DNA of 64,000 nucleotides from Spirochaetales bacterium (GCA_028722305.1 JAQYHB010000002.1:62001-126000); one strand, 5' to 3'. Positions 41,941-64,000 are shown, counted from the stretch's first letter. Notes: generated by a model not told the origin, from the sequence alone. Made by a program: numbers and translations.

Positions 41941-42516
41941 TTACTGGAGGTCAGTCTTGCGGGTAACGATTTTTCCAACGATTCCGTAGGCCTGGGCCTC
42001 GGAACTGTCCAGCCAATGGTCACGCTCGGTATCCTGGGAAACCGCTTCGACGCTCTTGCCTGTCTGCTCGGCAATCACACCATCCAGTTTAGCACGCAGC
42101 TTAATCATCTGCCTGGCATGGATCTGGATATCGGTGGCTACCCCCTTCATCCCGCTCATCGGCTGGTGGATCAGGTAACTCGAGTTAGGAAGCGCGTAGC
42201 GGCGATCCTTGTCGACAGCCAAGTACAGCAGAGCCGCGGCGCTGGCGACCAGACCGCAACCAACCATCACGACCGGACTGGAGACGAAACGAACCATATC
42301 GAACATGGCGTAACCGGCATCCACATCGCCACCCGGGCTGTTGATGTAGACGGTGATCTTCTCATTGCCCTCGCTGTCGAGCACGAGCAGCTGCTTGATG
42401 AAGGCGTCGGCGCTATCCTTGTTGATCTCGCCGCTGACCATGATCGAGCGGGTTTTCAGAAGCTTATCCTGCAATGCGGGATCCGGCGCTTGTTCTTTCT
42501 TCTGTTCTTCAGGCAT
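41941..42516 (-). CDS. clpP: ClpP-family serine protease
   Basis: 191 residues. ClpP features: YINSPGGDVDAGYAMFD, catalytic Ser in CGLVASAAALLYLA (in place of the common GQAASMGA), catalytic His in LIHQP, and the Asp in TERDHWLDSSEAQAYG. The altered Ser loop suggests a secondary ClpP paralogue rather than the main housekeeping copy; whether clpX is elsewhere cannot be seen. The start ATG follows AAAGGA. It lies at the left edge of the AT-rich island. Confidence 0.9.
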   Translation of the reverse strand: MPEEQKKEQAPDPALQDKLLKTRSIMVSGEINKDSADAFIKQLLVLDSEGNEKITVYINSPGGDVDAGYAMFDMVRFVSSPVVMVGCGLVASAAALLYLAVDKDRRYALPNSSYLIHQPMSGMKGVATDIQIHARQMIKLRAKLDGVIAEQTGKSVEAVSQDTERDHWLDSSEAQAYGIVGKIVTRKTDLQ

Positions 42517-42544
42517 GAATACTGTCCTTTCGCAGGGCTACAGG

Positions 42545-42977
42545 CCCTTTGCTAAATAGAACACAAACTTCACCTATTGGCAAGGGGAATAAGAATGCTA
42601 AGTTAAATTCCACTACACGCAAATGGTATGGAAAGTGAATGGACGTGACAAGGATTCCTCACGCTCAAATCCTCTCTTCCAATGGATGTAAGTATAAACT
42701 CAAAAGGAAACCCGAGATTGGAGTTCCTCAAATTTACCGCTTGTTGCGACAGATGATCACATATCAAGCAAATAAGAAGGTTCATGCGGCAATTTGCATG
42801 TGATAGAGATATCGCGTGGATTGACATAGCATCCCCACAACCGAATATGCGATAGAATCATGAAGCAAGCGGATACAAAGCATTCGTCTCCGTCCAATCA
42901 ATACCCACCCAAGAAAGATGTCTTTACTGTTGGTTGGGCAATTGCCTCGTTCTGTGGATTGGTGCCGATAGCCCAGC
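42545..42977. other. Intergenic stretch with no supported gene
   Basis: About 430 bases at the left boundary of the AT-rich island. Short open frames exist on both strands but none has family similarity. A 44-codon plus-strand frame (42860-42994) ends exactly at a strong hairpin with a T-run, and is listed separately as a possible small gene. No insertion sequence ends or direct repeats were recognised. Confidence 0.5.
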
Positions 42978-42994
42978 TCAAGTGTTGTCGCTAA
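42860..42994 (+). CDS. Possible small membrane peptide (44 residues)
   Basis: Starts MKQADTKHSSPS, continues with a polar, proline-rich part, then a hydrophobic stretch VFTVGWAIASFCGLVPIAQL and a basic end KCCR. The stop TAA touches a perfect 12-bp hairpin followed by TTTTT, as expected for a real short transcript. No convincing ribosome site precedes the ATG, and a TTGACA box at 42821 has only a poor -10 partner. Low confidence. Confidence 0.2.
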   Translation: MKQADTKHSSPSNQYPPKKDVFTVGWAIASFCGLVPIAQLKCCR

Positions 42995-43646
42995 GCATTT
43001 CTGCAAAACGAAGGTGCAGAAATGCTTTTTGGATATCGGTCATCGGGTCATATTTCGTTTGGTTTGCTTCGAGTTGATAGATACATACCTCGGCACAGCG
43101 TATGGATCCTTTGCTGATGACCAACACAAAGGGGATCAAAAGCCTTTTCTCGCCCGTATAAATGTTTTTTCCCGATTCACTCGTCAAAGAGTATGGAAGC
43201 AGATATGCATTCAAAGCATCCAGTATCTGATAATATCCCTTTGTCCCCGCGGTCTCCTTGATTGCTTTCTCCCCTTGAAGGCAGAATGTATCCCGCTCAT
43301 TGGTGACGTCCACATAGAACAATGATTCAACACATGCCTTTTTTGTTTCCTCCAGGAGAATCGGGATGATATTTCGACACCACGGACACCAGTTGGCGCC
43401 GAAATAGATTACTGCGGATTCTGCCGCAAGCAAATCGTATGCCCCGGAAGCATCTATGTAATGTACCTGATTCTCTATAGGAATATAGGTCGTATGATAC
43501 AAAGCAAAAGATGTGTCGCTACGGGGCAAACCATTCAAGGATTCATATTCCTTTTTGAACCGCAGGGCATCTGATACGGTTGTCTGGGCAAAGACCGGCC
43601 CTAGGATGCCCAACAGGACCACCAGAAACAAATTGAGCCTCTTCAT
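42978..43646 (-). CDS. Secreted thioredoxin-fold protein (CPWC motif)
   Basis: 222 residues with a signal peptide (MKRLNLFLVVLLGILGPVFA). The redox motif is in VIYFGANWCPWCRNIIPIL, preceded by a strand and followed by LFYVDVTNERDTF, and a cis-Pro-like LLIPFVLVISKG. It should be an exported disulfide oxidoreductase or reductase. The ATG at 43646 follows AGGTG. A second, frameshifted thioredoxin-fold gene lies 14 bases upstream on the same strand. GC content is clearly lower than in the flanking kilobases. Confidence 0.8.
   Translation of the reverse strand: MKRLNLFLVVLLGILGPVFAQTTVSDALRFKKEYESLNGLPRSDTSFALYHTTYIPIENQVHYIDASGAYDLLAAESAVIYFGANWCPWCRNIIPILLEETKKACVESLFYVDVTNERDTFCLQGEKAIKETAGTKGYYQILDALNAYLLPYSLTSESGKNIYTGEKRLLIPFVLVISKGSIRCAEVCIYQLEANQTKYDPMTDIQKAFLHLRFAEMLSDNT
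42994..43030 (+). terminator. Strong plus-strand intrinsic terminator
   Basis: Arms AGCATTTCTGCA and TGCAGAAATGCT are perfectly complementary (12 bp) around a nine-base loop and run into TTTTT. It lies inside the 3' end of the minus-strand thioredoxin-fold gene, so in that direction it is coding sequence. Confidence 0.6.
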
Positions 43647-43659
43647 GGATTTCACCTAC

Positions 43660-44132
43660 CTAACAGCCACAACCCTCATCTTTTTGGAAAGGGAGCATTT
43701 GGACTGATGCCTCTGGTTCTATCTCTGAAATCGAAGTATCAAAGTACGTTCCCAAAGCAAGGACAATTTGATTCTGGTAGCCGATGTATCCATGGTAGGC
43801 GTCTATGTATCTGAGGTCTCCCTTATAATCGAACCAACCTGCAAATATTTTCTCCCCTATGAATATTCTGGGAACTCCCCAGACCGGTATTCCACGACTT
43901 TCACAGGCACTTTTCCAGATTTGCGGTTCTTCATCGATATCATGGGATTCAATCTCGATTTCTTTGTGGTTCAAGAGAATCCGGTCTATGGCTTGTTTCA
44001 TCTGGTGGCATTGTACGCAGTTTTGGAATAGAAAAACAGAACAGGGGCATTCTCACCTAGATTCTTGGCCGATAATGGGAAGACTGCCATCGATACGAGG
44101 AAGAGAAGAAAACTTACTATCCGAATCTTCAT
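43660..44132 (-). pseudogene. Frameshifted secreted thioredoxin/glutaredoxin-like protein
   Basis: Two frames make one protein. The first, from ATG at 44132, codes a signal peptide (MKIRIVSFLLFLVSMAVFP) and the first strand APVLFFYSK, then stops. The other frame codes NCVQCHQMKQAID with a CxxC site, and RGIPVWGVPRIFIG with the cis-Pro region, down to 43660. They join if one A is added in the four-A run at 44021-44024 (minus strand). Either a broken gene, a sequencing error in a homopolymer, or a frameshifting site. A C-terminal GCGC end is notable. Confidence 0.75.
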
Positions 44133-44208
44133 TGTATGAAATGAGGTAGGCGAATCCCTGCAAAGGTTGAACAGATGCAGGGATTCACTATTTCGATCCA
44201 AACCTACC

Positions 44209-46233
44209 TTAGCGAGGAAGAACAGTTAGTCTGACGGTCAAGGAGGCAACAGACCCGACAGCGTTCAAAACTTCCGCTTGGTACATACCGGCGTCTTCCA
44301 TGAAGACTTTACCTAAACGCAGAGCTTCCGATGCAGACTCGTTTCTCGTGCCAACTTCGACACCATGTGGCAGAACGATTTCCCCATCTTTATACCACTG
44401 GTAGCCAACACCAATTCCATCTGCCTGTACAAGGAACCCCACAGTGGTTCCTTCTTTGACAGTAACGCTTACTGGTTGCCGCGTGATGACTGGAGCGGAA
44501 GTGGCTCTGTCCGAGGTGCGCAAATACATCTTTTGTCCCTCATATTCCGTAATCTTGCCATCTTCAACGTGCGCATATACATCGCTTTCAGCACCTATTC
44601 CTAAAGCCACGCCATACCCTCCATTTGTAGCAGTTGTACTGAGGGTAAGGGCAAGTTTTCCACCTTCGGTGTAAGGTTCTGGAAGATTCAGGGCTATCTG
44701 TCTTGGTCCCCAGGCGATGGTCCTTGCATCAACAGTCCATGAATAGGACACACCATTTGGAAGTTCCAAGGTTGCAACCAGAGGTGCGTTTACGAGGGCA
44801 TCTTGAGCAACCCACTTATTGCTCGACGGGGATTCGTCTGGAGTCTGTTGGAAGATGGAAGGAAGGACACATGCAACGACGGTGCCTGGCTCGACGGTCC
44901 ATTCCTGTCTGGCAGAACGTTCCGCAGTGACACATAGGTCAGCCTGATAGGCGTTGACATGTTCACTGGCGATAGGATGCGCAAGAGGTATTTCATATAC
45001 AGCCTTAGGCTCCAACATACGAATCTTTCCATCTTCGGCAAAGTCTAGAGTAAACCACCACTGGCCAGAAAGAGCCAAGTTGTTGTCTCCGGAGTTGTTG
45101 AAAGCCAATGTGCTCAATGGTGCACCGGTTGCACTGGAGCGATAGTGGGTACCATACATCATTGGAATCCATCCCCCGTTTCCATCAGGAAACATCGAAG
45201 CGCCATGAGTCTGGGCCAAAATTCCATCGGAAGAAATCAGGGAAGCCACAAGAGGCTCCTCGCTGGACATGGTGTCCGGGCTGAGCCATGGACCTTCAGG
45301 CCTTCTCGCCATGACAAAGCTTAACGATGCGCCAACACAGTTGCCGCAACGTCCTGTCCCTGTGATGTACCACCAGCCGTCATGATAAAAGAAGCCCATT
45401 CCGCCTGCGATAGTGTTGGTGCCGAAGTTGCCTGCACCACTCATGGTAAAGGAACGATCCTCCACAACACCGGTCAGTTCAGGGGTCATCCTGTAAAGTT
45501 TTGTGTTTGTACCTGCCTGGGTGAACCACCCGATTCCAGTGGCGGGGTCGACCTTGATCTGATAATCATGAGTGAGATCGCTTACCTTGACGCCTTCCGA
45601 GACTGTCGGGCTCTGCGGTTTGCTCCATGGCCCCTCTGGAGAATCTGCTGTCATGACCATAATCGGATCTTCCCCTTCAGTCCTTGCGCTGTTCAGGAAC
45701 CACATAACATACTTTCCTGTAGCCTTGGAAAAGGCGATACGCGGTTTCTTGATGACAAGGTGGCGTCCGGTTTCTTCATCTTGTGGAAACCATCTGCTGA
45801 CAAGGGTCCAGTTTTCCAAATCTTCCGAACGATAGGTGACAAGCCCACTCCAGCGATAAAATGTGGGAATGGTGGTATCCAGTGTCTCTGTATATGGAAC
45901 ACCTGGCGCATAGTTGAAGGCACCTTCTGCAAATGACTGCCCAATCAGATAGTAATACCCGTCGGCATAGAAGAAATCCTGTTCGTCTACGGCTCCAATG
46001 GCATTACCTTCAACATCAAAGGCAATATTAATCGGACCGTAAACCAATGGTGCAGCAGGGGAAGTTTCCATGCCATTGTCTCCATTGAGTGGATCATCCG
46101 CAATGAATGTGTTCAAATATGCGACAGAATGAGGCGCAACCTCTTTACTACCTGCCGGAGATTCCATAACCGCCTGCGCAAAACAAGCAAAACCAAACAC
46201 CTACAAAATGATGGCAAGGAATGCTTTTTTCAT
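44209..46233 (-). CDS. Secreted propeller glycosidase-like protein with Ig domain; amber codon in signal peptide
   Basis: The true start seems to be ATG at 46233 after a strong AAGGAGG: MKKAFLAIIL, then TAG at 46201-46203, then VFGFACFAQAVMESP in the same frame, which together make one perfect signal peptide. The 663 codons after the amber are intact. About residues 30-420 resemble a five-bladed propeller of the GH43 kind (DFFYADGYYYLIGQS, YVMWFLNSAR, GFFYHDGWWYITG); a beta-sandwich follows; the end is an Ig-like domain (APVITRQPVSVTVKEGT, YQWYKDG, DAGMYQAEV). Without readthrough the protein would not be exported. Confidence 0.65.
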
Positions 46234-46426
46234 TTTTCCTCCTTGTAATGCAAAAGGTATCCTGCTTTGGGTACAATTATCCCTATCGATAATCGAACCC
46301 TCGGTTTCTCACTGGAAGACTGGACCCTGAGGATCCCTTGCGTATTGGGCTGCACAATGGGCCTCACATGCATGTTGTGGGAATGTATGTTTCCCTCTCC
46401 AGTATCGATTGCCACCAGAAACGAAG

Positions 46427-47860
46427 CTAAAACCCAAGATTGAATCTCTTGAAATTGTCACCCATTGGTACTTCGCCAGGTCCGACAGGAAGCAGACGAT
46501 GCATGCAGTACTGTGCGTCCTGCATGGACCAATCGCCGCTCTCGACGATTTTCTTCCAAAGTAAAGAAACAAGGGTTTTCTTTTGTTCCTCAAACGCAGG
46601 ATCATCAATCAGGTTGTACTTCTCTTCCGGATCATTGCACAAATCATACAGGCAATCCCGATCAAAAGCGTTGAACACATACTTCAACTGCTTATGCCAG
46701 ATTATACGTTGCGTGTACGAATAGCGCTGTCCGTGGAACTCTGCTATGGAATAAGAATCATCACACATTTCCGGGTTATCAACGAAAGGAACCAACGACA
46801 TCCCATCGAGCTTGCCTCCACGCCACCCCAACCCTTCCACATCCAAGATAGTCGGCAGGATGTCGCATGAAGAAGCGTATGCTTTGCACTCCAGGCCTTT
46901 TCCCTTTCCCTCTGGGAACTTAACAACCAAGGGAATGGAATATCCCTCTTCATACGAAGGAACTCCTTTGCAAAAAAGCCCATGGCTCCCCACCAAATCT
47001 CCGTGGTCGGCAAGGAACAGTATAAGCGTATCGTCATATAAATCGTTCTGCTTCAAACAATCGATCAAACGCCCCATCTCTTCATCGACCAAGGAGCAGT
47101 AACTATAATAACAACGAATCGCTTTGAGGATATCAGAAGGCGATAGACTCTTCCAAACCTCATGGAGACGATCATAAATCACAGGGCGCTGCCCATCTTT
47201 CTCCCAAGTGCCCGGTATGGTGATATCATGATTGTCATAAAGGTCATAGATGCATCTGGGAACCATGTACGGGTCATGTGGTGCATACGCAGACACAACA
47301 AGGCAAAATGGATTGTCTCCCTCTTTCTGAGCTTCTACAAAATCAATGGCCTTGGAAACCATGTAATGTTCCTCAGAAGATTCTGGCCCTTCCTGATATA
47401 TCCCGCAAAGGGTATAATCCCGATAGCCTTCGTTGTGAATCGTAACTTTGTCCAGATAATGCACCTGCTTCTTAGGAATCTGGCGTTCCGTCTCATATGC
47501 ACTAAATCCAAACTTATGTAGATCATAACTGCGTTCAATATGCCATTTCCCGTAATGAGCAAGCACATATCCGGCATCATGCAACTCGTTCGTCAATGTA
47601 TGCAAAGAATAATCGTATTCGCTCCGATAAGCAGGAACTGTATGCGTACAATCCACCATTCCATGATTATGTGGCAACAAGCCTGTAAGCATTGAAGCCC
47701 TGCTTGGTGAACAAATTGCATTGACCGAATGGGCGTTGCAAAAAGTCACAGCATTCTTTTGAAGGTTTCTCAGATTCGGCATGATGGCTTTGGATTCGTC
47801 CATCACCGTTTTCTGTTGCATTTGATCACTAAGAATAATAACGATATTCTTCTTTTTCAT
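46427..47860 (-). CDS. Sulfatase (formylglycine type)
   Basis: 477 residues. The active-site motif CSPSRASMLTG (Cys50) needs conversion to formylglycine. Metal and substrate residues are seen in IVIILSDQMQQ, YGKWHIERS, AYAPHDPY and FLADHGDLVGSHGLF. There is no signal peptide, so the enzyme is cytoplasmic and acts on an imported sulfated substrate. It follows tctA by 10 bases, linking it to the transporter. No anaerobic sulfatase-maturing radical SAM gene is visible in the window. Confidence 0.92.
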   Translation of the reverse strand: MKKKNIVIILSDQMQQKTVMDESKAIMPNLRNLQKNAVTFCNAHSVNAICSPSRASMLTGLLPHNHGMVDCTHTVPAYRSEYDYSLHTLTNELHDAGYVLAHYGKWHIERSYDLHKFGFSAYETERQIPKKQVHYLDKVTIHNEGYRDYTLCGIYQEGPESSEEHYMVSKAIDFVEAQKEGDNPFCLVVSAYAPHDPYMVPRCIYDLYDNHDITIPGTWEKDGQRPVIYDRLHEVWKSLSPSDILKAIRCYYSYCSLVDEEMGRLIDCLKQNDLYDDTLILFLADHGDLVGSHGLFCKGVPSYEEGYSIPLVVKFPEGKGKGLECKAYASSCDILPTILDVEGLGWRGGKLDGMSLVPFVDNPEMCDDSYSIAEFHGQRYSYTQRIIWHKQLKYVFNAFDRDCLYDLCNDPEEKYNLIDDPAFEEQKKTLVSLLWKKIVESGDWSMQDAQYCMHRLLPVGPGEVPMGDNFKRFNLGF

Positions 47861-47870
47861 GAATCTTTCC

Positions 47871-49403
47871 TTACTTTCCTACTTCAGCTTTGACCTTGTT
47901 CTGTTTCTTGATGGAATAGACATTTAAAACCAACATGATGATGCCAACAACAATAATCAACAAGCACACCTTACTTTGGAAAATAAAGGTCAAGAGACTC
48001 ATCTCCTTCGCTCCTGCAATCGTGCCAGCCATTCGCATATTCTTCTCAATCAGCGGTTCCAAAATAAACCCAAGAAATACTGGTGCAGGAGGAATGGAGA
48101 GCTTGTGAAAGATATAACCAATAACGGTAAATGCCAGCATGACATATACATCAAACATGTTGTTGCGGAGGCTGAAAGAACCAATCAGCAAACAACAAAC
48201 CACAGGAGGAATGATGTATTTCATGTCCAATCGGGTAATACGAGCAAATGTCGGAGCAAATGTAATGGCAACGACAGCCATGACAACAGCACTCACCAAT
48301 AAGCCGTACATGAATCCATAGCTCACATCAGCATGGTCGGAAAACAACGTCGGCCCAACGACTATCCCATGAATGGTCAATGCACCAGCAATCAACGCAG
48401 CCGCATTGGAACCAGGAATACCAAGAGCAAGGAGCGGGACAAACGCACCGCCGACAGCCGCATTGTTTGCGGTTTCTGCCGCGACAACACCGGAAGGTAC
48501 TCCGGTACCGAACTTTTCCTTGGAATTGCGTTTCGCTTCACCATACGCCACGAAAGCGGCGATATCACATCCCGCACCGGGCATAATACCAATGGCAGTA
48601 CCGAGGACAGCGGATTTGATTACATTGAGCTTCTCATTATGAAACATGTATGAAAGAACTTTGCGCGGAGAAGTTTGCTCAAGGGCAATCTGCGCAGTCT
48701 CATCAGGCAACCCCTGCCGTTTCCGGTCTCCTTTGCGATAAGCCTTCAATATCTCAATGACCATCTGCCTGCCGGCAATGATACCCATGGCCAAAGCGAC
48801 CTGCTTGAATCCCATTGTCAGGTTGGTGAATCCGAAAGTAAACCGAGACTGTCCAAGGATCTGATCAATACCAACCATTGCAAACAGCATGCCGAAGCAA
48901 GACCCCAAAATGCCTTTGAACATGTTGTCACTTGACAGCGACGCAATAATAATGAAGCCAAGAATAGAAACAACAGCAATTTCCGCCGGACCGAACTTCA
49001 ATGCCACGCGAGCCAAGGATGGAGCAAAAAGGATCATGGCGAAACACCCAAAGACTCCACCGATTGAACTTGAAATGCTTGCCAAGAATAGCGCTTCTTT
49101 TGCCCTACCTTTCTGAGCAAGAGGATATCCTTCGATGGTTGTGCAGATCGATTCTGCTGTACCTGGAATGTTCAACAATACACCAGAAAAAGAGCCTCCT
49201 ACGGCACATCCCATATAGATACCCCCCAGCAGGCACAATGCGCTGAGCGGAGTCATGGAATAGGTAAATGGCAACATGACAATGATAGCAATATTGTTGC
49301 CCAAGCCAGGGATTGCCCCAACAATGATACCGAAAACGGTTCCAAGCAGAATCATGACAATAGCACTGCTGGAAAAAATATCTGCGAGTATCGAGATGTT
49401 CAT
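47871..49403 (-). CDS. tctA: Tripartite tricarboxylate transporter large membrane subunit
   Basis: 510 residues with about 12 hydrophobic helices. TctA marks are GAIPGLGNNIAIIVMLPFTY, the GGSFSGVLLNIPGTAES signature loop and a repeat of it in the second half (TAIGIMPGAGCDIAAF, ALGIPGSNAAALIAGAL). The ATG at 49403 follows AAAGGA. With TctB and TctC it forms a secondary uptake system for carboxylic or other acidic compounds. Confidence 0.95.
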   Translation of the reverse strand: MNISILADIFSSSAIVMILLGTVFGIIVGAIPGLGNNIAIIVMLPFTYSMTPLSALCLLGGIYMGCAVGGSFSGVLLNIPGTAESICTTIEGYPLAQKGRAKEALFLASISSSIGGVFGCFAMILFAPSLARVALKFGPAEIAVVSILGFIIIASLSSDNMFKGILGSCFGMLFAMVGIDQILGQSRFTFGFTNLTMGFKQVALAMGIIAGRQMVIEILKAYRKGDRKRQGLPDETAQIALEQTSPRKVLSYMFHNEKLNVIKSAVLGTAIGIMPGAGCDIAAFVAYGEAKRNSKEKFGTGVPSGVVAAETANNAAVGGAFVPLLALGIPGSNAAALIAGALTIHGIVVGPTLFSDHADVSYGFMYGLLVSAVVMAVVAITFAPTFARITRLDMKYIIPPVVCCLLIGSFSLRNNMFDVYVMLAFTVIGYIFHKLSIPPAPVFLGFILEPLIEKNMRMAGTIAGAKEMSLLTFIFQSKVCLLIIVVGIIMLVLNVYSIKKQNKVKAEVGK

Positions 49404-49427
49404 GGATTTTTTCCTTTCGATGAATCC

Positions 49428-49456
49428 ACCTGGGGCGCCAAGCAAGCGTCCCAGGT
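49428..49456 (-). promoter_or_regulatory. Intercistronic hairpin between tctC and tctA
   Basis: Eleven-base arms ACCTGGGGCGC and GCGTCCCAGGT (one G-U pair in RNA) with a seven-base loop, just after the tctC stop. No T-run follows in the minus direction. Such hairpins often protect the binding-protein mRNA so that it is made in excess over the membrane subunit. Confidence 0.5.
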
Positions 49457-49466
49457 CACGAGATTC

Positions 49467-50447
49467 TTATTTCTTTTTTTCTGCGTTGATTTTCTGATAC
49501 AGTTGCATCATTTTATCGACATATGCGAAGTACACATCTTTGAATTGTTCGGCAGGGGTGTAAAGGGCTTTTTGTCCCGTTTGGGCAATCGCATCAGCCA
49601 AACCATGCTTCTCATACAACTCCCCGACCATATCGGATACAGCTTTCACATACTCATCCGGAGTTCCTTTTGGCGCAAGAATATAGTTGAATGTTGTATC
49701 AACAATATCGATTCCCTTGGATTTGAACGTATCTGCCGCATCTGCTACATGCTCGGTGCGATCATCGGTATCTCCGAGAACCGTCATATTTTCACTCACG
49801 CAGTTGGCGTAATACTGAGGATCCAATTCAGCACAGTCGACATGTCCACCCAACACCATAGTGAAAGCATTATTACCGCTTCCCGCATTCACGATGGTCA
49901 AATCAATACCCAATGCCTCCTCAATCAGAACGGCACCATAAATGGTGTTGCCTCCCGAAATAGCAATCGTCAACTTGCCGGGATTCGCTTTTGCATATGA
50001 GACGAAACTATTCAAATCAGAGAACGGGCTACCAGGTTTCAAAGCCAGAAAGCGGGATTTACTGGTAACTTGGCAAACTGGAATAAGATCATTCCGGGTA
50101 AATTTTGCCTCAGGGAAATTCACAATAAGGTTGGGAATTTCAGTAGATCCAACAATCATAAAGGTATAGCCATCAGGTTTCGCCGTTAATGCTTCATTGG
50201 CACCAATCAGACCATCACCACCTTCGAGGTTGTTGACAACAGTAGTATACCCAAGGTCTTTCTGAATTGCCGTCGCTACAGCACGAGCACACACATCAGT
50301 GCCCCCTCCAGCAGCGCGATTGACGATGAATGTAATAGGCTTGTTCGGATACTTCTTTGCAGCTCCACCATTCTCTGCCGCACCATTTGCGAACAGCATT
50401 CCGAGGCTTAGGCTCATTCCCATAAGCAGACACAAACTCTTTTTCAT
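49467..50447 (-). CDS. tctC: Tripartite tricarboxylate transporter substrate-binding protein
   Basis: 326 residues, Bug/TctC family, exported by a signal peptide or lipoprotein-like leader (LCLLMGMSLSLGMLFANGAA). The mature part starts YPNKPITFIVNRAAGGGTDV, a Bug family hallmark, followed by NNLEGGDGLIGANEAL. The binding pocket ligand cannot be told from sequence. The start follows AAAGGAG. Confidence 0.93.
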   Translation of the reverse strand: MKKSLCLLMGMSLSLGMLFANGAAENGGAAKKYPNKPITFIVNRAAGGGTDVCARAVATAIQKDLGYTTVVNNLEGGDGLIGANEALTAKPDGYTFMIVGSTEIPNLIVNFPEAKFTRNDLIPVCQVTSKSRFLALKPGSPFSDLNSFVSYAKANPGKLTIAISGGNTIYGAVLIEEALGIDLTIVNAGSGNNAFTMVLGGHVDCAELDPQYYANCVSENMTVLGDTDDRTEHVADAADTFKSKGIDIVDTTFNYILAPKGTPDEYVKAVSDMVGELYEKHGLADAIAQTGQKALYTPAEQFKDVYFAYVDKMMQLYQKINAEKKK

Positions 50448-50473
50448 GATTACTTGCTCCTTTCAAACGAAAT

Positions 50474-50944
50474 TCAGAATAAAAATCCCTTTGGCGTATT
50501 CACCTTAAGGACCACCCCAAACAACAGATAGGTAACTCCCAAGACAACCAAGTCAAACAGAGCGACTTTCAGCATTTGCTTTCCATTCCAACCGTGCTCG
50601 AAATAGCTGATGGTCAGCGAAATGGTCAGGATTGAGAGATAGGTACAGACATACATGCCGATGACCGTTGCAAACCGCATGAGTAACGTGATAATCAAAA
50701 ATGACAAGATGCCGATTACGGCCTGTCGCACGTTTGTTTTCTTTTGGGTTTCCGCAACAGTCTTGTTACACAAGGCTTTGACAATAACGCCAACAGCACA
50801 TAGGCAACCAAGCAGAATAACGATGTGAGGCATTATTTGCGCCTCTTCAGCCAGGCCTCCAACTTGAATCCAGCAAATGGAAAAAAAGACAATCGAGAAA
50901 ACACCAAGGTAAAGATCTGAAATAGCTAAAGAAGGTTTCTTCAT
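50474..50944 (-). CDS. tctB: Tripartite tricarboxylate transporter small membrane subunit
   Basis: 156 residues with four hydrophobic helices (DLYLGVFSIVFFSICWIQVG, IMPHIVILLGCLCAVGVIV, AVIGILSFLIITLLM and VALFDLVVLGVTYLLFGVVL). Size and layout are those of TctB. It is the first of the three transporter genes. Its ribosome site AGGTGG lies in the arm of a small hairpin. Confidence 0.85.
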   Translation of the reverse strand: MKKPSLAISDLYLGVFSIVFFSICWIQVGGLAEEAQIMPHIVILLGCLCAVGVIVKALCNKTVAETQKKTNVRQAVIGILSFLIITLLMRFATVIGMYVCTYLSILTISLTISYFEHGWNGKQMLKVALFDLVVLGVTYLLFGVVLKVNTPKGFLF

Positions 50945-50951
50945 TGATTCA

Positions 50952-50974
50952 CCACCTATGCCTATCTTAGGTGG
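50952..50974 (-). promoter_or_regulatory. Hairpin covering the tctB ribosome-binding site
   Basis: Arms CCACCTA and TAGGTGG with a nine-base loop; the minus-strand 3' arm contains the AGGTGG that would bind the ribosome seven bases before the tctB ATG. Could lower tctBCA translation unless opened. Confidence 0.35.
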
Positions 50975-51033
50975 CAGAAGAAGATACTGTAAACTTTGAA
51001 AAACCGGCTAAATTCTCTAAAATTCAGCAGTCA

Positions 51034-52056
51034 TCAGAGTGCGCTCTGTTGTTCGGCCTTGATGGAGTCAATCAAATCTTGCCAACGGCTCGCATACTTG
51101 TCGTAGACCTTCCCCGCGGCAAGAACCCACTTTTCCCGATCCTTGAGAGAGGAAAAGATGACTCCTGCCTCCTCAAGAGCATGGATCTGCTCCTCCTGAC
51201 GGGCTACAGTCAATTCCTGAAAACGAGAAGTCACTTGCTTCGCCGCTATCTGAAACAGTTCTTGATCAGCGACCGAAAGGCGCCTCCACGTTTGCTCAGA
51301 GATAATGATTGCCGAAGGTTGGATGAGATAGTCGCTCCAAGTATAATACCGTGCGACTTCAAAATACTTGTTATTGTAGTAACTTTTGACAGGATTTTCC
51401 GCCCCATCGACAACACCTGTCTGCAAAGCAGAATATAGCTCTGTAGTAGGAGTATGAGCCGCGACACCTCCAAACGCCTCGATGGTATCGGTATAAATTG
51501 CCCCATCCTGCACGCGAATCACCAACGAACGAAAATCTTCCAAGCTTTCGCATGGACGTTTTGTGAAGAAATTACGCGGTCCTGCGACAAAATACCCGAG
51601 AATAACAAGCCCGCTACCCGCATTTGCAATATCGCTAGCGACTTTCTTACCAAACGCTCCTTGCATGGTTTTTACCGCATGCTCTCTATTCTGGAACAAA
51701 AAAGGCAACGACAAAATAGGTAAATACGGCACATTTACCCCCCACCCATACAGGTTGGTTGGAGGTTCATTGCACAAATCAATGGCACCGACCATCAGTG
51801 ATTGCACCACACTTTTGTTGTCTCCAAGAGTTCCTGATGGATATACCTGAATATCGATGCGTCCCTGGGTAGACGTACGAATGTATTCAGCAAATTCTTG
51901 GGTAGCGATAGTTCGCTCATCCTGCGGAGAATTTACTTCCGCATAGCGCAACACCATTCTGTCTAACGGCAATGGAAATAATTCCTCATGTACGCCGCGC
52001 GCGAAGAGTACGCCCACTGCGGAGAGTATCAGACCTAAAAAAAGTACTCGCTTCAT
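51034..52056 (-). CDS. DctP-type periplasmic binding protein (TRAP family)
   Basis: 340 residues. Signal peptide MKRVLFLGLILSAVGVLFA. DctP features: VLRYAEVNSPQDERT, FAEYIRTSTQGRIDIQVYPS, and the SLVIRVQDGAIYTDTIEAFG loop with the conserved Arg that binds the substrate carboxylate, then ALQTGVVDGAENP. The TRAP membrane subunits DctQ/DctM are absent; instead the neighbours are TctBCA and a two-component system, divergent by 42 bases. It may present ligand to the sensor kinase. The start at 52056 follows AAGGAG. Confidence 0.9.
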   Translation of the reverse strand: MKRVLFLGLILSAVGVLFARGVHEELFPLPLDRMVLRYAEVNSPQDERTIATQEFAEYIRTSTQGRIDIQVYPSGTLGDNKSVVQSLMVGAIDLCNEPPTNLYGWGVNVPYLPILSLPFLFQNREHAVKTMQGAFGKKVASDIANAGSGLVILGYFVAGPRNFFTKRPCESLEDFRSLVIRVQDGAIYTDTIEAFGGVAAHTPTTELYSALQTGVVDGAENPVKSYYNNKYFEVARYYTWSDYLIQPSAIIISEQTWRRLSVADQELFQIAAKQVTSRFQELTVARQEEQIHALEEAGVIFSSLKDREKWVLAAGKVYDKYASRWQDLIDSIKAEQQSAL

Positions 52057-52080
52057 TCCATCGCTCCTTGTCCGCTGGTT

Positions 52081-52095
52081 ATTGTATAATACAAT
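52081..52095. promoter_or_regulatory. Inverted repeat over the -10 region of the sensor kinase gene
   Basis: ATTGTAT A ATACAAT, perfect seven-base arms around one base, contains TATAAT and lies four bases before the kinase ATG in the 42-base gap between the divergent dctP-like and kinase genes. Confidence 0.4.
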
Positions 52096-52098
52096 GCT

Positions 52099-53541
52099 AT
52101 GGAATATCGTCACTCCATCAAGAAGTTGTTGCTAAGCAATCTAATCCTACTCATAGCGTTGGTGTCCGGCATTCTCGTCTCTGGATTCATCTCAAACCAA
52201 GCACGTACTCGCAAAATGGAAACCATCAGACGCGACGACAAAGCAATCCAGGAATTGGCAAACAACTTAACTCTCTATGAAGAAAGTTATCAGCAATGGC
52301 TGAAAGATGGAACTGTCGCATCGCTCATGCATTTCCAAGATTGTTCAGCGACTATTGTGAATGCTACCGATGCATCCAAAAAACTATTTATATTGACCAA
52401 CGATATGTTATTGTATTCTCGAACAATCAGCCAAATTTCCCAAGCATTGGAAAAACTGGTTTCTGAACAACTAGTCGGACATCGTAATGAAAAAGAATCT
52501 TTCGATGTGCTACAACTGGTTGATTTCGGATTCTCCCAACTTCTCTCCCAAGGGAACGCCTTGGTTGGTGCCTACATTCAATATTCCGGAAACAGATTCA
52601 GCAACATTAGCCTCGATTTTCAGCGTTATAGTCATATCCAAGCGATCCTGCAAGTAATCCTCACTCTCATCATCTTGATTCCATTGGCATGTCTTTCCAT
52701 TGATTTTATCCGGCGACTCGAGAAAATCGATAGAGCCTCGGAAGCCTTGGCGAAAGGTGTTTGGGACACAGAAGATTTACAATTGAGCCGTTACGAAGAA
52801 TTTGGCAATGTGGCCAACGCCTTCAACCATATGAAAAAGGAAATCAAGAAGAATATCAATGCTATGGAAAAAACGTTGGAGGCGCAAAAAGAGCTTGCAG
52901 AACAAAAACAACTTGTACAGGAAACCAGATTCCGAATGTTGCAAGCGCAAATCAATCCACATTTTCTGTTCAACACGCTGAACATGATTGTCCATTCCAT
53001 TCAAGCAGACCAGAAAGAGAAGGCAACCAAATTAGTCCTTTCCACCAGCAGCCTGCTTCGTCAAGCGATAGACTTGCAAGATGGGGAAATCAGTCTTCAT
53101 CAAGAATTACAGTTACTAGACAACTATATCACCATTCAAAAAGAACGCACTGAAGGCAGGATAGCTTTCCACCTCGATGTGTTCGATTGTCCAAATGTAA
53201 CTATACCCCCTTTCACGCTCCAACCTTTGATAGAAAATGCCCTGAAACACGGCCTACACGACCAAACGCAAGGAGGCTTGGTTGAAGTTCACGTATTTGA
53301 AGACGAGGATTGTGGTGCGTTCATCATAATACATGATAATGGCATCGGTTTTGATATACAAATTTTGAATCATCTTTCTCACAGTCAAAAAACTTTTCAT
53401 GGCATCCTCGATACTGTTGAACGCCTCAAAGCTCACCATCACAACTCGGACATAATCTCCTTCTCCTCAAGTGCTCAAGGCACTACCGTTAAAATTCATC
53501 TATTAGGAGCCACACATGATGTATCATATACTTGTAGCTGA
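52099..53541 (+). CDS. Sensor histidine kinase (YesM/LytS type)
   Basis: 480 residues. Transmembrane helix near residues 10-32 (LLLSNLILLIALVSGILVSG), an extracytoplasmic part of about 155 residues, a second helix (AILQVILTLIILIPLACLSI), a HAMP linker, and the His_kinase domain with the phosphoacceptor in QINPHFLFNTLNM, followed by the ATP site (LIENALKHGL, DNGIGFD). It should sense a ligand outside, perhaps through the DctP-like protein, and phosphorylate the regulator encoded next. No ribosome site is seen; a -10-like TATAAT is nine bases upstream. Confidence 0.93.
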   Translation: MEYRHSIKKLLLSNLILLIALVSGILVSGFISNQARTRKMETIRRDDKAIQELANNLTLYEESYQQWLKDGTVASLMHFQDCSATIVNATDASKKLFILTNDMLLYSRTISQISQALEKLVSEQLVGHRNEKESFDVLQLVDFGFSQLLSQGNALVGAYIQYSGNRFSNISLDFQRYSHIQAILQVILTLIILIPLACLSIDFIRRLEKIDRASEALAKGVWDTEDLQLSRYEEFGNVANAFNHMKKEIKKNINAMEKTLEAQKELAEQKQLVQETRFRMLQAQINPHFLFNTLNMIVHSIQADQKEKATKLVLSTSSLLRQAIDLQDGEISLHQELQLLDNYITIQKERTEGRIAFHLDVFDCPNVTIPPFTLQPLIENALKHGLHDQTQGGLVEVHVFEDEDCGAFIIIHDNGIGFDIQILNHLSHSQKTFHGILDTVERLKAHHHNSDIISFSSSAQGTTVKIHLLGATHDVSYTCS

Positions 53542-54313
53542 AGACGAATTAATGGAACAACACTTTCTTACAAAGAGTATTTCCGACCATTACGATTCTC
53601 AGGTTCTTCAAATCATCGCTATTTGTGGAAATGGAGAAGAAGCAATCAAGCAAGGTCTTGCATTGAAACCAGACATAGCCCTGCTGGACATTGAAATGCC
53701 GAAGATCAACGGACTAGAAGTAGCACGAAGACTCAAGCAAGACAATCCTGGCATACAGATTGTCATGATCACTGCCTATGGTACATTCACATATGCGAGG
53801 GAAGCAATAAAAATTGGCGTGACTGACTACCTGGTAAAACCCTATGTGAGCGCACAACTCTTCTCCATCCTTGATGAACTAATTGAGAAACTCAAAGGAA
53901 TAAAGAAAACAGCAATCTCCCGTATCGTTACATTGCTCAACACCACCAGCCCGGATGTTGAGACGCACCCCATTGTTCGCATGGCCATCTCGTATATCAA
54001 CCAGCACTACTCTGAAAAGATTTCGTTGGAAATCATGTCCAATGACCTTAAATTCTCGTCAAGTTATGTCTCAAAATGCATCAAGAAATACATGCACACC
54101 AGTTTTACTCAGTTGCTCATGGAAAAACGGTGTACAGAAGCCGCCAAACTTTTATTGAAGCAAAATATTACAGTCAATGAAGTTGCATATGCTGTCGGGT
54201 TTTCAGATCCAAATTATTTCTATACATGCTTCAAAGACCAGTTTGGCATTCAACCCAAGAAATATGCACAAGCTGTTTTTGCGCGTAACGAAAACATTTT
54301 TTCTTCCAATTAG
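53516..54313 (+). CDS. Response regulator with AraC-type DNA-binding domain (YesN type)
   Basis: 265 residues. Receiver domain with acidic pocket (LVAEDE), phospho-Asp in IALLDIEMPKINGLEV and Lys in DYLVKPY; C-terminal AraC helix-turn-helix pair (SLEIMSNDLKFSSSYVSKCI; EVAYAVGFSDPNYFYTCFKD). Overlaps the kinase gene by 26 bases and has AGGAG before the ATG. It likely activates the transporter-sulfatase genes of the island. Confidence 0.95.
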   Translation: MMYHILVAEDELMEQHFLTKSISDHYDSQVLQIIAICGNGEEAIKQGLALKPDIALLDIEMPKINGLEVARRLKQDNPGIQIVMITAYGTFTYAREAIKIGVTDYLVKPYVSAQLFSILDELIEKLKGIKKTAISRIVTLLNTTSPDVETHPIVRMAISYINQHYSEKISLEIMSNDLKFSSSYVSKCIKKYMHTSFTQLLMEKRCTEAAKLLLKQNITVNEVAYAVGFSDPNYFYTCFKDQFGIQPKKYAQAVFARNENIFSSN

Positions 54314-59064: not shown

Positions 59065-59080
59065 TTGTCATTCACGAAAG

Positions 59081-59153
<73 letters not shown>

Positions 59154-59166
59154 ATATCCCAGCCTG

Positions 59167-62100
59167 CTAGAAGGCCCGAACGGGCAGGACCCGGAGAAAT
59201 TCGTTTCTCGGGACACTCTGCCATTTCCCACCAACCAGCGCCCAAGCCTTGGTTTTCGAGGCTTCGGACGAACTCCACAGTCTGGCATCCTGCAAGATCG
59301 GCTTCAATGCGTCTACGCCGTTCATGTGTTCCAATTCCACGATTGAAGGAAGGAACCAATCGGCAAAGGAACCAGTCGTATCTTCCTTTGCCACTTTGGC
59401 AGCATAGCTGTTTGTCATCCGCAACCCGACAGCTCCGATGTAGGTGGCATCCCCCATCTCGTCCACCAGGTTGTTGGTGTTTTCCGCGCCGCTTCCCATA
59501 TACGTAGAGGAGACAAGCGCGGTGTCGGCCGAACGGCAGTATCCGAATGGAGCGAAAAGGACGGGACCTTCGGTGTTGACCTCCAGATACCTCCACTTCC
59601 CCTCATAGGATCCAGCATCATAGAAAACCACCCCGCCCGAAGGGCCTGGTTCTCCCAGATCGTATCGTGGCAGACCGGCGTCAAAGCTTTGCGTGACATA
59701 CGAGACCTCCACATCATTCCTATCTTTGTAGAGGATTCCGCAATCCCACGACGTCCCTATTTTCTGAAACCCAATCGGCTGGCTGGCAGTTCCGACCGCA
59801 TGGAGGCGAGCCCCCCGTTCCAAGGAGATTCTTCCCCTATCCACAAAAAACACCTGCACCCCGGGGTCGATGACAAGCGTCGAACCGGATTGTATCCAAA
59901 TGTTTCCTGAAACATAATAAGGTCCGTGGGACACCGTCCAATGAAGATCCTTCCCCATCGTCAGGGTTCCACCTATTTCATAGCGCTCTTTCAGATCTCG
60001 CGCCACCAGGGAACCTTTGCCCGCGCCATCACTCATGGCGGTATAGGCCGCGACGTAATCCACCGCGGTTCCTTTTCCTGTCAGATAGCATTGGGCCAGC
60101 TTCGCCAAGGCAAGGCCACTCGCGTCGGTTTTTGACCTGGAGACACACAACTGGTAATATTGCTCGTCCGACAAAGCGGACTCAGCATCTTCGAACGACA
60201 CCGAATACCTGCAGACGGTACACTCCATTTTTTTGTTGAACTCATGAGGATAGTAGTAGAAAGAGAAAGGATGCCAATGCCCCCGGAGGGCTTTGCACCA
60301 GATAGAGAAGTTGAAAATAGCTCCTATGATAATGGCGAGAGGCAACAGAGCAAGTCCTTTCAACAGGATGCCCAATACTTTGCCCCGCTTGCAGGCGACG
60401 ATGCGCTCGCGGGAATCCTTCCAGTCGGGAATTGAGGCATATTGATATATCGCATAGTCATACCTATGGGCCTCTTGAGACTGGAGCGCGCTTTGATAGA
60501 CTTTTTCGTTTTCCGCGTCAATGCAATCCTGGACACGTTTGGGAGCATCCTTGTATTGCCCCAAAGAGAGGAATTTCTCCCGTGCGGAAGCGTATTGCTT
60601 CTTCCGATACAAGGTATCGGCTTTTGCATATGCCTCGGCATGCTGGAACTCCTTCTTCCGCTCCTCACACGCCTGGATCAAGGATGAGACGTCATAGCCC
60701 TCCGGGAACCAGGAAACGTACTGTTGGATGTCGCGGATCATCTGGGCGCATTGCTCGATGGTGGTCATTTTGCCGACAGCCCCTTCAAAATATCCCACCA
60801 AGGTGGAGGCAAGCGTTGCCTTGGGTCCGTCTGCCTCGGGGAACTCCTGCGCCAGGTTCCACCACTGCTGTACAAGATCTTCGGTAGGACCATCAGTCCT
60901 GCCGATGATGTCCAGACGTTTTTCCTTTACCTTCAGAATGAGGGAAGGGAGGGGATATCCATCAGGAAATCTGTCGGAAGGTGTATGCGCGAGCTTCTCT
61001 GCCAAGTCCTGTAGGGCCTCAGGATCCTCGGTTCCTTCGAACTTCGCGATAGTATCGTCAAGGTATTGGTCCTTCTTGATCTTCTGCATGGGAGCACGCT
61101 TGTCCAAGAACTTGGTTTTGAAATCCGCATCGGCAAGGCTGACGGCGCTCTTGAAATACCCCTGGCTGTCATTGTCCGCAATCTCACTATCGGGCAGGCC
61201 GCACAAGTCGTCCAGCGTGGTGACTTGATCCCGCAAAGCCCCCTGTTGCTTGTATGTCACAAAGAACGCGCCGAGATACGCCCAAGGATTGTCGACCTCC
61301 TCGTTCATGGAACGCTTGAAAAGCTGCATGGCGAAATCCAGTCTGCCGATTTTGAGCGCTTTTATGCCCCGTTCCACGTAGTTGGCGCTCTGCGGGTACT
61401 TCACAGCAGATGAAACGGTCTTGCCGGTGGAAGAGTCTCCTGCGTTTGCCGTACTGGTTCCAAGAATCTTTCTGATGCCGACAATGATGTCCTGCAGGAA
61501 ACCAAGCCGGGACATATCCAATGCCTGCAGATAGGAGAACTCCTCCGGCAGGTCATATGGGTCCATGTCACGGTATGCGGGAATCAGATGCTTCTGGGAA
61601 TCCTTCTTCATCAGAGCAAGGAACCGGCTCCACTCGTTCCGCACCCATGCGGCTTTGAAATATTCGGGTTTGGTACCAAGTACCACCATCACCTTCGCCG
61701 AGTGAATGGCGGCAAAGATGTATGGCTCGTACGCGGTACCTGCCTTTGTTTCCAGGGTAATGCGCGAGAAAAAGACCTTGTAGCCCGCCTTCTGCAGTCC
61801 ATAGTACAAATCTTGGGCGATTACCGAATCCCGCGTCCGTCTGCCATCAGCGTCAGCCTCCTTGTAACAGATGAAGACGTCAAAGGGCTTCTCGTTGCGG
61901 GAGATGGCGAGAATACCTTGCTGGATTCGGTCGATCTCCTTCGCCTCGGCCTCATACACCTCTCTCTGCAACACGTCGGCAAGGCTTACCGCCTTTTGGT
62001 AATTCAAGTCCTCAAAGACGGAGACAAACTGGGTACGGTTCACCGTAGGGACACGTTTGTGGCTTGCGGGATCCTCGACATATTCAATGCCATAGGTACA

Positions 62101-62349
62101 CAGCACCAGGTCCCAATAGGCCTCTGCGTCATCGGGGTCCTCGATGGTTATCTGCTCGTACAGGGAGTAGGCTTTATCGAAGTCATTGGCGCTACGGAAA
62201 TGCTCCGCACGGTCATACAGCATCTGCTTCTTGTCGGTGGAGATGCGTGGAAGTGTCTGCCTGGTATGGCAATACTCACATACGACAACCGTGGCGTTGG
62301 CGTCGACCTCCATCGTCCCGCCGCACATCTTGCATTTGAAGACCGCCAT
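59167..62349 (-). CDS. TIR-domain protein with zinc ribbon, helical repeats, membrane helix and Lcl-like C-terminus
   Basis: 1060 residues. Zinc ribbon: Cys6, 9, 24, 27 (CKMC, CEYC). TPR-like helices about 40-90. TIR domain about 156-290: FDVFICYKEADADGRR, YKVFFSRITLETKAGTAYEP, AKVMVVLGTKPEYFKAAWVR, with a Glu in the VRNEW helix at the position of the NADase Glu (Glu239). Then helical repeats to about 690, one membrane helix (LALLPLAIIIGAIFNF), a Sel1-like stretch, a beta-rich stretch with right-handed-helix character, and a DUF1566/Lcl-like C-terminus (GGVVFYDAG, WFLPSIVELEHM, LWSSSEASKTKAWAL). Last gene of a unit with an SPFH protein. A defence or stress role is inference. Confidence 0.85.
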   Translation of the reverse strand: MAVFKCKMCGGTMEVDANATVVVCEYCHTRQTLPRISTDKKQMLYDRAEHFRSANDFDKAYSLYEQITIEDPDDAEAYWDLVLCTYGIEYVEDPASHKRVPTVNRTQFVSVFEDLNYQKAVSLADVLQREVYEAEAKEIDRIQQGILAISRNEKPFDVFICYKEADADGRRTRDSVIAQDLYYGLQKAGYKVFFSRITLETKAGTAYEPYIFAAIHSAKVMVVLGTKPEYFKAAWVRNEWSRFLALMKKDSQKHLIPAYRDMDPYDLPEEFSYLQALDMSRLGFLQDIIVGIRKILGTSTANAGDSSTGKTVSSAVKYPQSANYVERGIKALKIGRLDFAMQLFKRSMNEEVDNPWAYLGAFFVTYKQQGALRDQVTTLDDLCGLPDSEIADNDSQGYFKSAVSLADADFKTKFLDKRAPMQKIKKDQYLDDTIAKFEGTEDPEALQDLAEKLAHTPSDRFPDGYPLPSLILKVKEKRLDIIGRTDGPTEDLVQQWWNLAQEFPEADGPKATLASTLVGYFEGAVGKMTTIEQCAQMIRDIQQYVSWFPEGYDVSSLIQACEERKKEFQHAEAYAKADTLYRKKQYASAREKFLSLGQYKDAPKRVQDCIDAENEKVYQSALQSQEAHRYDYAIYQYASIPDWKDSRERIVACKRGKVLGILLKGLALLPLAIIIGAIFNFSIWCKALRGHWHPFSFYYYPHEFNKKMECTVCRYSVSFEDAESALSDEQYYQLCVSRSKTDASGLALAKLAQCYLTGKGTAVDYVAAYTAMSDGAGKGSLVARDLKERYEIGGTLTMGKDLHWTVSHGPYYVSGNIWIQSGSTLVIDPGVQVFFVDRGRISLERGARLHAVGTASQPIGFQKIGTSWDCGILYKDRNDVEVSYVTQSFDAGLPRYDLGEPGPSGGVVFYDAGSYEGKWRYLEVNTEGPVLFAPFGYCRSADTALVSSTYMGSGAENTNNLVDEMGDATYIGAVGLRMTNSYAAKVAKEDTTGSFADWFLPSIVELEHMNGVDALKPILQDARLWSSSEASKTKAWALVGGKWQSVPRNEFLRVLPVRAF

Positions 62350-63035
62350 CAGTTAGCGCCTTTGGATTGCCTTGCAAGTTCGTTCCGTTCCTTCATGAGA
62401 CGGACAACCCTTGCCCCTGTCTCCTTCCCGCAAGAGGCTTGGTATGACTCGAATGCCTCCTCGACCGCCTGCTCGATCGCCTTGGTATGCTCGGATGAGA
62501 CCGGGTCGGAATAGCGGAAGGTATCATACACCTCCTGGGCAACCTGTTTTTTCTCGTCATCCTGGGCATCTTGCAGGATGGCGAAGGCCTTCTCCGTCAT
62601 GGTCCTCACGAAAGCTGTCGACTGCCGGACGCCATCTGCTTTCGTCTCCATCAAGGCCGCTGCCGCCAAGGCCTTGAGAACGGTCCTCACCTCAAGGACG
62701 AGGATGACCAGCGCGATGACAGAGGCCACCCATGGCTTCAAGCTTGGAATCGCCATGGCGAAGGTGCCGACAACGATGGACAAACAGAGGTTCAGGAAAC
62801 TTTCACGCATCAGCGGCAATCTGGCAAACAATTCCTCGTTCCCTTTCTGGAATGCGAACCAGACACATACAAGCTGGCCGATAAAGGACAGGTCGACCAA
62901 AGCAAAGGCAATCCAGAAGCCAGCTGGAAGCAGCGACAGTCCAATTGTATTGCCCCACACCAACAGGACGACTGCGTTGCACAAGAGACAAAGGACGACC
63001 CAACTTGCTACGTAATACCGAAAAAGCTTTTTCAT
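62349..63035 (-). CDS. Membrane protein between the SPFH and TIR genes
   Basis: 228 residues. Four hydrophobic helices in the first 125 residues (ASWVVLCLLCNAVVLLVW, LLPAGFWIAFALVDLSFIG, CLSIVVGTFAMAIPSL, VASVIALVILVLEVRTVL) followed by a charged helical tail of about 100 residues. The start shares ATGA with the SPFH gene stop and its own stop shares TGATG with the TIR gene start, so the three are translationally coupled. No family recognised. Confidence 0.75.
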   Translation of the reverse strand: MKKLFRYYVASWVVLCLLCNAVVLLVWGNTIGLSLLPAGFWIAFALVDLSFIGQLVCVWFAFQKGNEELFARLPLMRESFLNLCLSIVVGTFAMAIPSLKPWVASVIALVILVLEVRTVLKALAAAALMETKADGVRQSTAFVRTMTEKAFAILQDAQDDEKKQVAQEVYDTFRYSDPVSSEHTKAIEQAVEEAFESYQASCGKETGARVVRLMKERNELARQSKGAN

Positions 63036-64000
63036 TTCTCTTTTCCCCCGGTCAATTTCTTTCCGCAATTCTGGCAGAAATTGGAACCAGGAGCCACCGG
63101 AGCCCCGCACACGGGGCAAACCAGGAGGACTTGCGCCCCGCAGACTGGACAGAATTTCGCTCCGGAGGAGATGATCGCGCCACAATGGCTGCAACGCGCC
63201 TGTGCCGGTTTCTCCGCCGAGTCCATCACCTGCTTGACCATGCCACTGACACCCCCGCCGATGGCGCCCCCCACTCCTGCCATGGTGCCAAGCCCTATTC
63301 CAAGATTGGAGTATTGTCCAATACCCTGGTTCCTGGCAACTTCTTCGGAGACGTCGAAACCTCGTTCCTGCTGGTAGGTATATCCTTCCTGAGCGCGTTT
63401 TCTGGCAAGCGCCTCGCTGGTGATCACCGTCTTCTGCGCCTGCGTCTGGGCGCCGATGATGTCGGTCTGCTGGCGAAGTCTTGCCTCTGCCACCGCCGCG
63501 TATTGGCGGAAATGGAGGTCCTTGAACTGCTCGTACTGGCGTTCCCCTTCTGGTCGCGCGATGTTGGTGACAAAAAACTGTTCGAGGGCGACTCCGTAGC
63601 CCGCGAACTTTGGCTGGAGCAAGGCCTTCAACGTATCAGAGAACTCGACCAGATGCTCGTCAATCTCGAAGATGTCGATCTTCTCCTCCTTCATCACCTT
63701 GGCGATGGCAGTCTTGAGGTGCGTCAGCAAGAAGGCGCGGAAGAAACCGGCGAGTTTCTGTTGGTCCAGACAGCTCTCCGTTCCGACGAGCTTCACCAAT
63801 AGCTTCCTCGAATCCTCAACGCGGAGACTCATTTCCCCGCTCGCTCCGATGGACAGGGGAAACCCATAGCGCGGTTCCAGATATTGAATCCTGCTGTCGG
63901 TCCCCCACTTGATTCCCATCTGCTCCACTTTGTTGACGAAATACACTTCGGCATGGAGCGGGCTGGTATCACCAGCCACGCGTCCTAGGTATTTCGCCGT
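63032..64000 (-). CDS. SPFH-domain protein with C-terminal zinc ribbons (cut by window end)
   Basis: At least 322 residues; the 5' end lies beyond 64000, since the frame stays open to the edge. The SPFH/YdjL-like ('virion core protein') part has AEVYFVNKVEQMGIKWGTDS, RYGFPLSIGASGEMSLRVED and a long helical stalk (RQYAAVAEARLRQQTDIIGA). The end has two zinc ribbons: CSHCG with CPVCG, and CPVCG with CQNCG. Glycine-rich linker GLGTMAGVGGAIGGG. First visible gene of a coupled unit with the membrane and TIR proteins. Confidence 0.85.
   Translation of the reverse strand, partial: TAKYLGRVAGDTSPLHAEVYFVNKVEQMGIKWGTDSRIQYLEPRYGFPLSIGASGEMSLRVEDSRKLLVKLVGTESCLDQQKLAGFFRAFLLTHLKTAIAKVMKEEKIDIFEIDEHLVEFSDTLKALLQPKFAGYGVALEQFFVTNIARPEGERQYEQFKDLHFRQYAAVAEARLRQQTDIIGAQTQAQKTVITSEALARKRAQEGYTYQQERGFDVSEEVARNQGIGQYSNLGIGLGTMAGVGGAIGGGVSGMVKQVMDSAEKPAQARCSHCGAIISSGAKFCPVCGAQVLLVCPVCGAPVAPGSNFCQNCGKKLTGGKEK

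Follow-up and report, generated by a model that had tools for sequence, protein, structure and literature searches.

Four described systems come closest to the locus considered here. Thoeris comprises the TIR protein ThsB, which has a conserved glutamate, and the SIR2 protein ThsA; ThcB4 is the NCBIfam model for Thoeris type III. Animal Toll-like receptors have a single transmembrane (TM) helix and a cytoplasmic TIR domain. Diversity-generating retroelements (DGRs) hypermutate C-lectin domains on immune-type conflict sensors (PMC10907252; PMC7159879), and in multicellular bacteria TIR domains are found among such sensors, in STAND or MoxR systems (PMC10907252). The PspA-YdjGHI operon of B. subtilis encodes a YdjI-type SPFH protein with a C-terminal zinc ribbon together with membrane proteins (PMC8581546, PMC11237479). 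We analysed a 64,000-nucleotide stretch of a rumen spirochaete genome (Spirochaetales bacterium, GCA_028722305.1, JAQYHB010000002.1:62001-126000; below, the window), which ends in a unit of three minus-strand genes encoding an SPFH protein, a protein with four TM helices (4TM), and a TIR protein, in this order. Judged from sequence, the unit appears to be a bacterial equivalent of a Toll-like receptor. Its features are:

63032..64000, minus strand: SPFH (Band_7_1) protein with C-terminal double zinc ribbon, 389 amino acids in full, cut by the window edge (Pfam)
62349..63035, minus strand: four-TM protein of 228 amino acids with C-terminal helical domain (AlphaFold; homologues in relatives)
59167..62349, minus strand: zinc ribbon-TPR-TIR-TPR-TM-ectodomain protein of 1060 amino acids
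62248..62349, minus strand: N-terminal Cys4 zinc ribbon of the latter, residues 1-34 (conserved cysteines in 106 family members)
61480..61884, minus strand: TIR domain, residues 156-290 (TIR_2, 7.3e-13, residues 158-280)
60400..61392, minus strand: TPR-like helical repeats, residues about 320-650 (AlphaFold, Foldseek)
60313..60369, minus strand: single TM helix, residues 661-679, KRGK on its N-terminal side, predicted N-in/C-out (hydropathy and flanking charge)
59170..60312, minus strand: predicted extracytoplasmic part, residues 680-1060, Sel1-like and beta-rich with an Lcl_C/C-lectin-like end

The unit differs from each of these systems. Unlike Thoeris, it has no obligatory ThsA, and it adds a zinc ribbon, TPR repeats, a TM helix, an ectodomain, and the SPFH and 4TM partners. 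The DGR conflict sensors are STAND NTPases or MoxR-vWA proteins, many of them predicted to be cytoplasmic, whereas the unit contains a predicted single-pass TIR receptor with SPFH and 4TM proteins and occurs in gut Clostridia and spirochaetes. Compared to PspA-YdjGHI, it has the TIR receptor and no PspA or TPM partner, and its 4TM family is unrelated by Pfam. In contrast to Toll-like receptors, the family has the reversed N-to-C order, leucine-rich repeats (LRR) of the BspA type where LRR are present, and a putative NADase glutamate; no homology of the whole architecture is claimed.

The gene order and overlaps given in a preliminary description of the window are exact. The SPFH stop and 4TM start codons overlap by 4 bases (ATGA, 63032-63035), and the 4TM stop and TIR start codons share one base at 62349 (TGATGG). 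Sequence past position 64000 completes the SPFH gene (L004:4133-5302), whose start codon lies 201 bases beyond the window and 255 bases from the contig end. In the uncultured Spirochaetaceae RUG023 (L014), whose TIR core is 96% identical to that of the window, the next gene upstream of the unit reads in the opposite direction, and thus three genes make up the whole unit.

The SPFH protein matches Band_7_1 (3.7e-41) and DZR (1.3e-12), the latter being the double zinc ribbon noticed earlier, and no TM helix was recognised in it. In having Band_7_1 and a zinc ribbon but no own TM helix, it belongs to the YdjI type and not to the flotillin-like proteins. The 4TM protein represents an undescribed family. 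It consists of four TM helices and a cytoplasmic-type helical domain with a near-invariant YSDPxS motif, and its AlphaFold model is all-helical (predicted local distance difference test, pLDDT, 92.9). It has no Pfam match and no fold match in PDB at E<=0.001; 53 homologues occupy the equivalent position in relatives.

In the TIR protein, the main elements of the preliminary description were recovered. The zinc-ribbon cysteines C9, C24 and C27 are present in all 106 family members, and C6 in 105. The putative catalytic Glu239 (codon 61633-61635) lies in W235-V-R-N-E239; W235, N238 and E239 are invariant (106/106), and the WxxxE context is typical of TIR NADase enzymes. The long repeats are helical in the AlphaFold model, with TPR superhelices as the top Foldseek matches, and the full-length model has good to moderate quality across the TPR regions. 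The one membrane helix was again predicted, at residues 661-679.

The unit is a member of a large family that is so far undescribed and occurs mostly in gut Clostridia. More than 520 relatives were matched, mainly in these bacteria. Nearly all of the best 79 come from gut or rumen Clostridia (66-71% identity over the 297-residue core), the window itself being spirochaetal. In an even draw, the TIR core was found in about 21 of 391 genomes of a Clostridia class; it is present in 5 of 139 genomes of the window's own order. At 20 loci of the class-wide draw with room upstream, co-directional SPFH genes precede the TIR gene in 16 cases, and both SPFH and 4TM genes in 15. The respective counts in the similarity-ranked set are 56 and 48 out of 72, and the median gap between the SPFH and 4TM genes is 7 bases. 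This synteny is far above chance, so a chance neighbourhood was rejected. No description of an SPFH-4TM-TIR unit was found in the open-access journal literature searched, and an earlier one may exist.

Conservation is uneven along the unit. Median identity over 64 loci is 63% for the TIR core, 47% for SPFH, 27% for 4TM, and 25% for the TIR C-terminus. Between the window and RUG023, the ratio of non-synonymous to synonymous substitution rates is 0.04-0.05 in the core (0.04 in TIR), 0.16 in the Sel1 part, and 0.26-0.46 in the repeat, TM, beta and lectin parts.

One TM helix is predicted in 83 of 106 family C-termini. In 82 of these 83 proteins the TIR side is the more positively charged, and therefore the TIR domain is predicted inside and the C-terminal part, with a median of 303 residues beyond the helix, outside. 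The TIR protein is thus a predicted transmembrane receptor with a variable ectodomain. About half of the ectodomains are of the C-lectin type DUF6273 (8.9e-34), and the others are RCC1 (3.2e-28), BspA-type LRR (LRR_5, 1.2e-117; loci L083, L069, L041), or have no known match. The LRR ectodomains are one more feature in common with Toll-like receptors. The ectodomain can be carried by the 4TM protein instead of the TIR protein, as seen in three extended 4TM proteins (L174:5960-7603, L175:6517-8166, L176:4219-5736) with a fifth TM helix, TPR-like repeats and a DUF6273-type end, identified by Pfam in L174 (1.1e-16) and by sequence in the other two. Such fusions tie the 4TM and TIR proteins to one receptor function.

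In one locus the ectodomain is the target of a DGR. A complete element in a Eubacterium metagenome-assembled genome (L015:2676-4761) has the TIR gene with the variable repeat (VR) in its tail, followed by bAvd (9e-9, slightly below the curated cut-off), a 126-base template repeat (TR), and a YMDD reverse transcriptase (RT; RVT_1, 5e-20). All 21 differences between TR and VR fall at template adenines, which make up 34 of the 126 template bases (chance 2e-15). By this sequence pattern, the DGR rewrites the lectin tail of the TIR receptor. In L026 and L029, decayed remnants of this DGR lie downstream of the TIR gene. Across 40 further DUF6273 tails, entropy at codons containing template adenines is 3.29 against 0.86 bits (p=3e-8), AAY-inaccessible residues (by changes of A) are depleted (5.7% against 22.7%), and pyrimidines are frequent at third positions (87% against 62%, p=7e-28); the p-values overstate independence, since the 40 rows share descent. 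This signature may also be an older selected pattern held in common. A variable and sometimes DGR-mutated ectodomain outside, with the TIR domain predicted inside, means that sensing is probably outward.

Other retroelements were considered as candidates and rejected. In the window genome there is no TR for the TIR gene, and the only RT adjoins its own target. This RT (L094, G000:C52:77994-78593) stands beside a gene, unrelated to the TIR unit, that by eye has a DGR-like variable C-terminus. Nine RT loci in other unit-bearing genomes have their own TR/VR pairs with mostly phage-like targets; L208 and L209 are phage-like DGRs, and L206 has RT and Avd with the target off the contig. A sister DGR in another Clostridia genome (L207:5916-10447, RT 55% identical) rewrites a fusion of a YobI-like P-loop NTPase with DUF6273, with 14 of 15 differences at adenine. 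This adds a second cellular DGR target of immune type in gut Clostridia.

The position between the 4TM and TIR genes is often occupied by one gene that differs from locus to locus. The families in this slot are HEPN (6 of 33), DUF4365 (two cases), TIR, FRG, DUF2971, and SIR2-like. In L173, TIR copies have RES and FRG genes next to them. In L056, a SIR2 gene matching ThsA models (2e-15) immediately precedes SPFH, and related genes occur in L059, L089 and L092. The slot is thus rich in defence-type effectors. However, this statement is descriptive only, as PADLOC matches of defence type also occur among the listed flanking control genes (AbiEii, PDC-S04, RT). One slot protein without a Pfam match (L158:9234-9971, LYIDLLGYKDIL...) has, by eye, a candidate nucleotide-cyclase fold.

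We favour, with slightly better than even confidence, a reading of the unit as a membrane-anchored, SPFH-scaffolded, outward-sensing TIR receptor of immune type. The SPFH and 4TM proteins would form a membrane scaffold gathering the receptor, by analogy with YdjI, which needs YdjG and YdjH. The ectodomain, variable between strains and rewritten by a DGR in some genomes, would bind an extracytoplasmic ligand, most likely a surface protein of a phage or a rival. Binding outside would cluster the cytoplasmic TIR domains. NAD+ cleavage is established for TIR enzymes with this glutamate, and the clustered domains may cleave NAD+; starvation for NAD+, or a nucleotide signal acting on the slot effector, would then stop growth. 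In the window copy, which has neither a slot gene nor a linked DGR, the TIR domain itself would thus be the effector. The coupled membrane-bound unit proposed earlier stands as regards the conserved neighbourhood, the invariant glutamate and the defence-type slot, so that one of the refuting conditions set earlier, the lack of a conserved neighbourhood, does not hold. It has been refined in two respects, as the SPFH protein is YdjI-like and sensing is predicted to be outward.

Several observations speak against this receptor reading. No confident single TM helix is predicted in 23 of the 106 C-termini, and two spirochaete relatives (L011:873-2357, L012:2018-3757) terminate in a TM tail and lack an ectodomain. 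Among about 100 loci an intact DGR accompanies the TIR gene in a single case, and no template repeat of the window tail (59160-59760) occurs anywhere in the window genome. The defence-type matches in the flanks belong here as well, as do the many slot genes with no assigned family and the lack of a match to the unit in phage and plasmid collections. Finally, the ectodomain of the window copy has low confidence in the AlphaFold model. Its C-terminus does match Lcl_C, which has a C-lectin-like fold, in line with the Lcl-like end described before, but the match is weak (0.0061; 17.3 bits against the cut-off of 34.9). Since it is weak and no retroelement is linked, the ectodomain of this copy is best regarded as putative.

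The same receptor could instead serve to recognise kin or neighbours, to adhere, or to compete with other bacteria, and not to fend off phages; we consider this unlikely. LRR_5, RCC1 and DUF6273 are common surface modules, the sister DGR target carries a YobI-type NTPase, and the cellular targets of DGRs are frequently binding proteins anchored in the membrane (PMC8144416). However, the combination of TIR with slot genes of the HEPN, SIR2, FRG and AbiH types is typical of suicidal antiviral systems.

Somewhat less probable still is an envelope-stress module of the PspA-YdjGHI kind, in which the SPFH and 4TM proteins survey the membrane, with the TIR protein acting as an adaptor or a regulator of stress and not as an immune receptor. 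The SPFH protein is of the same family type as YdjI, whose anchoring requires two membrane proteins and which recruits PspA (PMC8581546), and operons with YdjI-type SPFH proteins have been grouped with envelope stress (PMC11237479). On the other hand, no PspA, TPM or YdjG-like partner is seen in the unit. PspA and the TPM-domain YdjH are absent from the three genes of the window, and Pfam assigns the 4TM protein to no family, TPM among them; the neighbours of the relatives were not all searched. The invariant TIR active site, patchy distribution, hypervariable or DGR-rewritten ectodomains and effector-type slot genes are not what housekeeping stress repair would show.

A Thoeris-like scheme, with intracellular sensing, the C-terminal part as a mere anchor, and a cyclic ADP-ribose-type signal made by TIR for a separate SIR2 or other effector, is very improbable: it agrees with the ThsA-like SIR2 genes of L056 and its relatives and with a weak ThcB4 match (6.6e-6), but these genes are few, most loci lack ThsA, the window unit lacks the ThsA SIR2/macro effector, its TIR scores far under the ThsB family level (PADLOC best match PDC-S66, 17.7 bits; ThcB4, 25 bits against the cut-off of 220), and the DGR-rewritten part sits past the TM helix.

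The unit is an accessory segment beside a tRNA gene, absent from the congener G082:

59080..59152, plus strand: tRNA-Met(CAT), 3' edge of the accessory segment, with flanks kept in the congener lacking the unit

In this congener a nucleoside phosphorylase gene, the tRNA gene and a porin-like gene are directly adjacent, whereas in RUG023 about 8 kb separate the phosphorylase from the tRNA and contain a MATE-like gene, a lipoprotein-like gene and the unit. Mobile carriage of the unit was rejected given the phage and plasmid searches; the single match in a viral contig (L093) has the same arrangement as L044. Elsewhere in the window, positions 42000-54000 have a low G+C content (0.44-0.48 against ~0.58) and may be an island. 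At the end of this stretch lie a TRAP-type binding protein and a two-component pair.

It is conceivable, though we would put this at somewhat less than an even chance, that these units form a new class of bacterial immunity, in which outward SPFH-scaffolded TIR receptors with exchangeable effectors draw on a DGR-made ectodomain repertoire ahead of need, a Toll-like layout joined to antibody-like diversification in single-celled gut bacteria. If so, bacteria would have a TIR enzyme that detects attackers at the cell surface, a parallel to the Toll-like receptors of animals. The units would also bring together TIR immunity, membrane scaffolding by SPFH proteins and hypermutation by DGRs, which so far are separate themes. 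Being present in about 5% of the sampled Clostridia genomes, the unit is common enough for direct testing.

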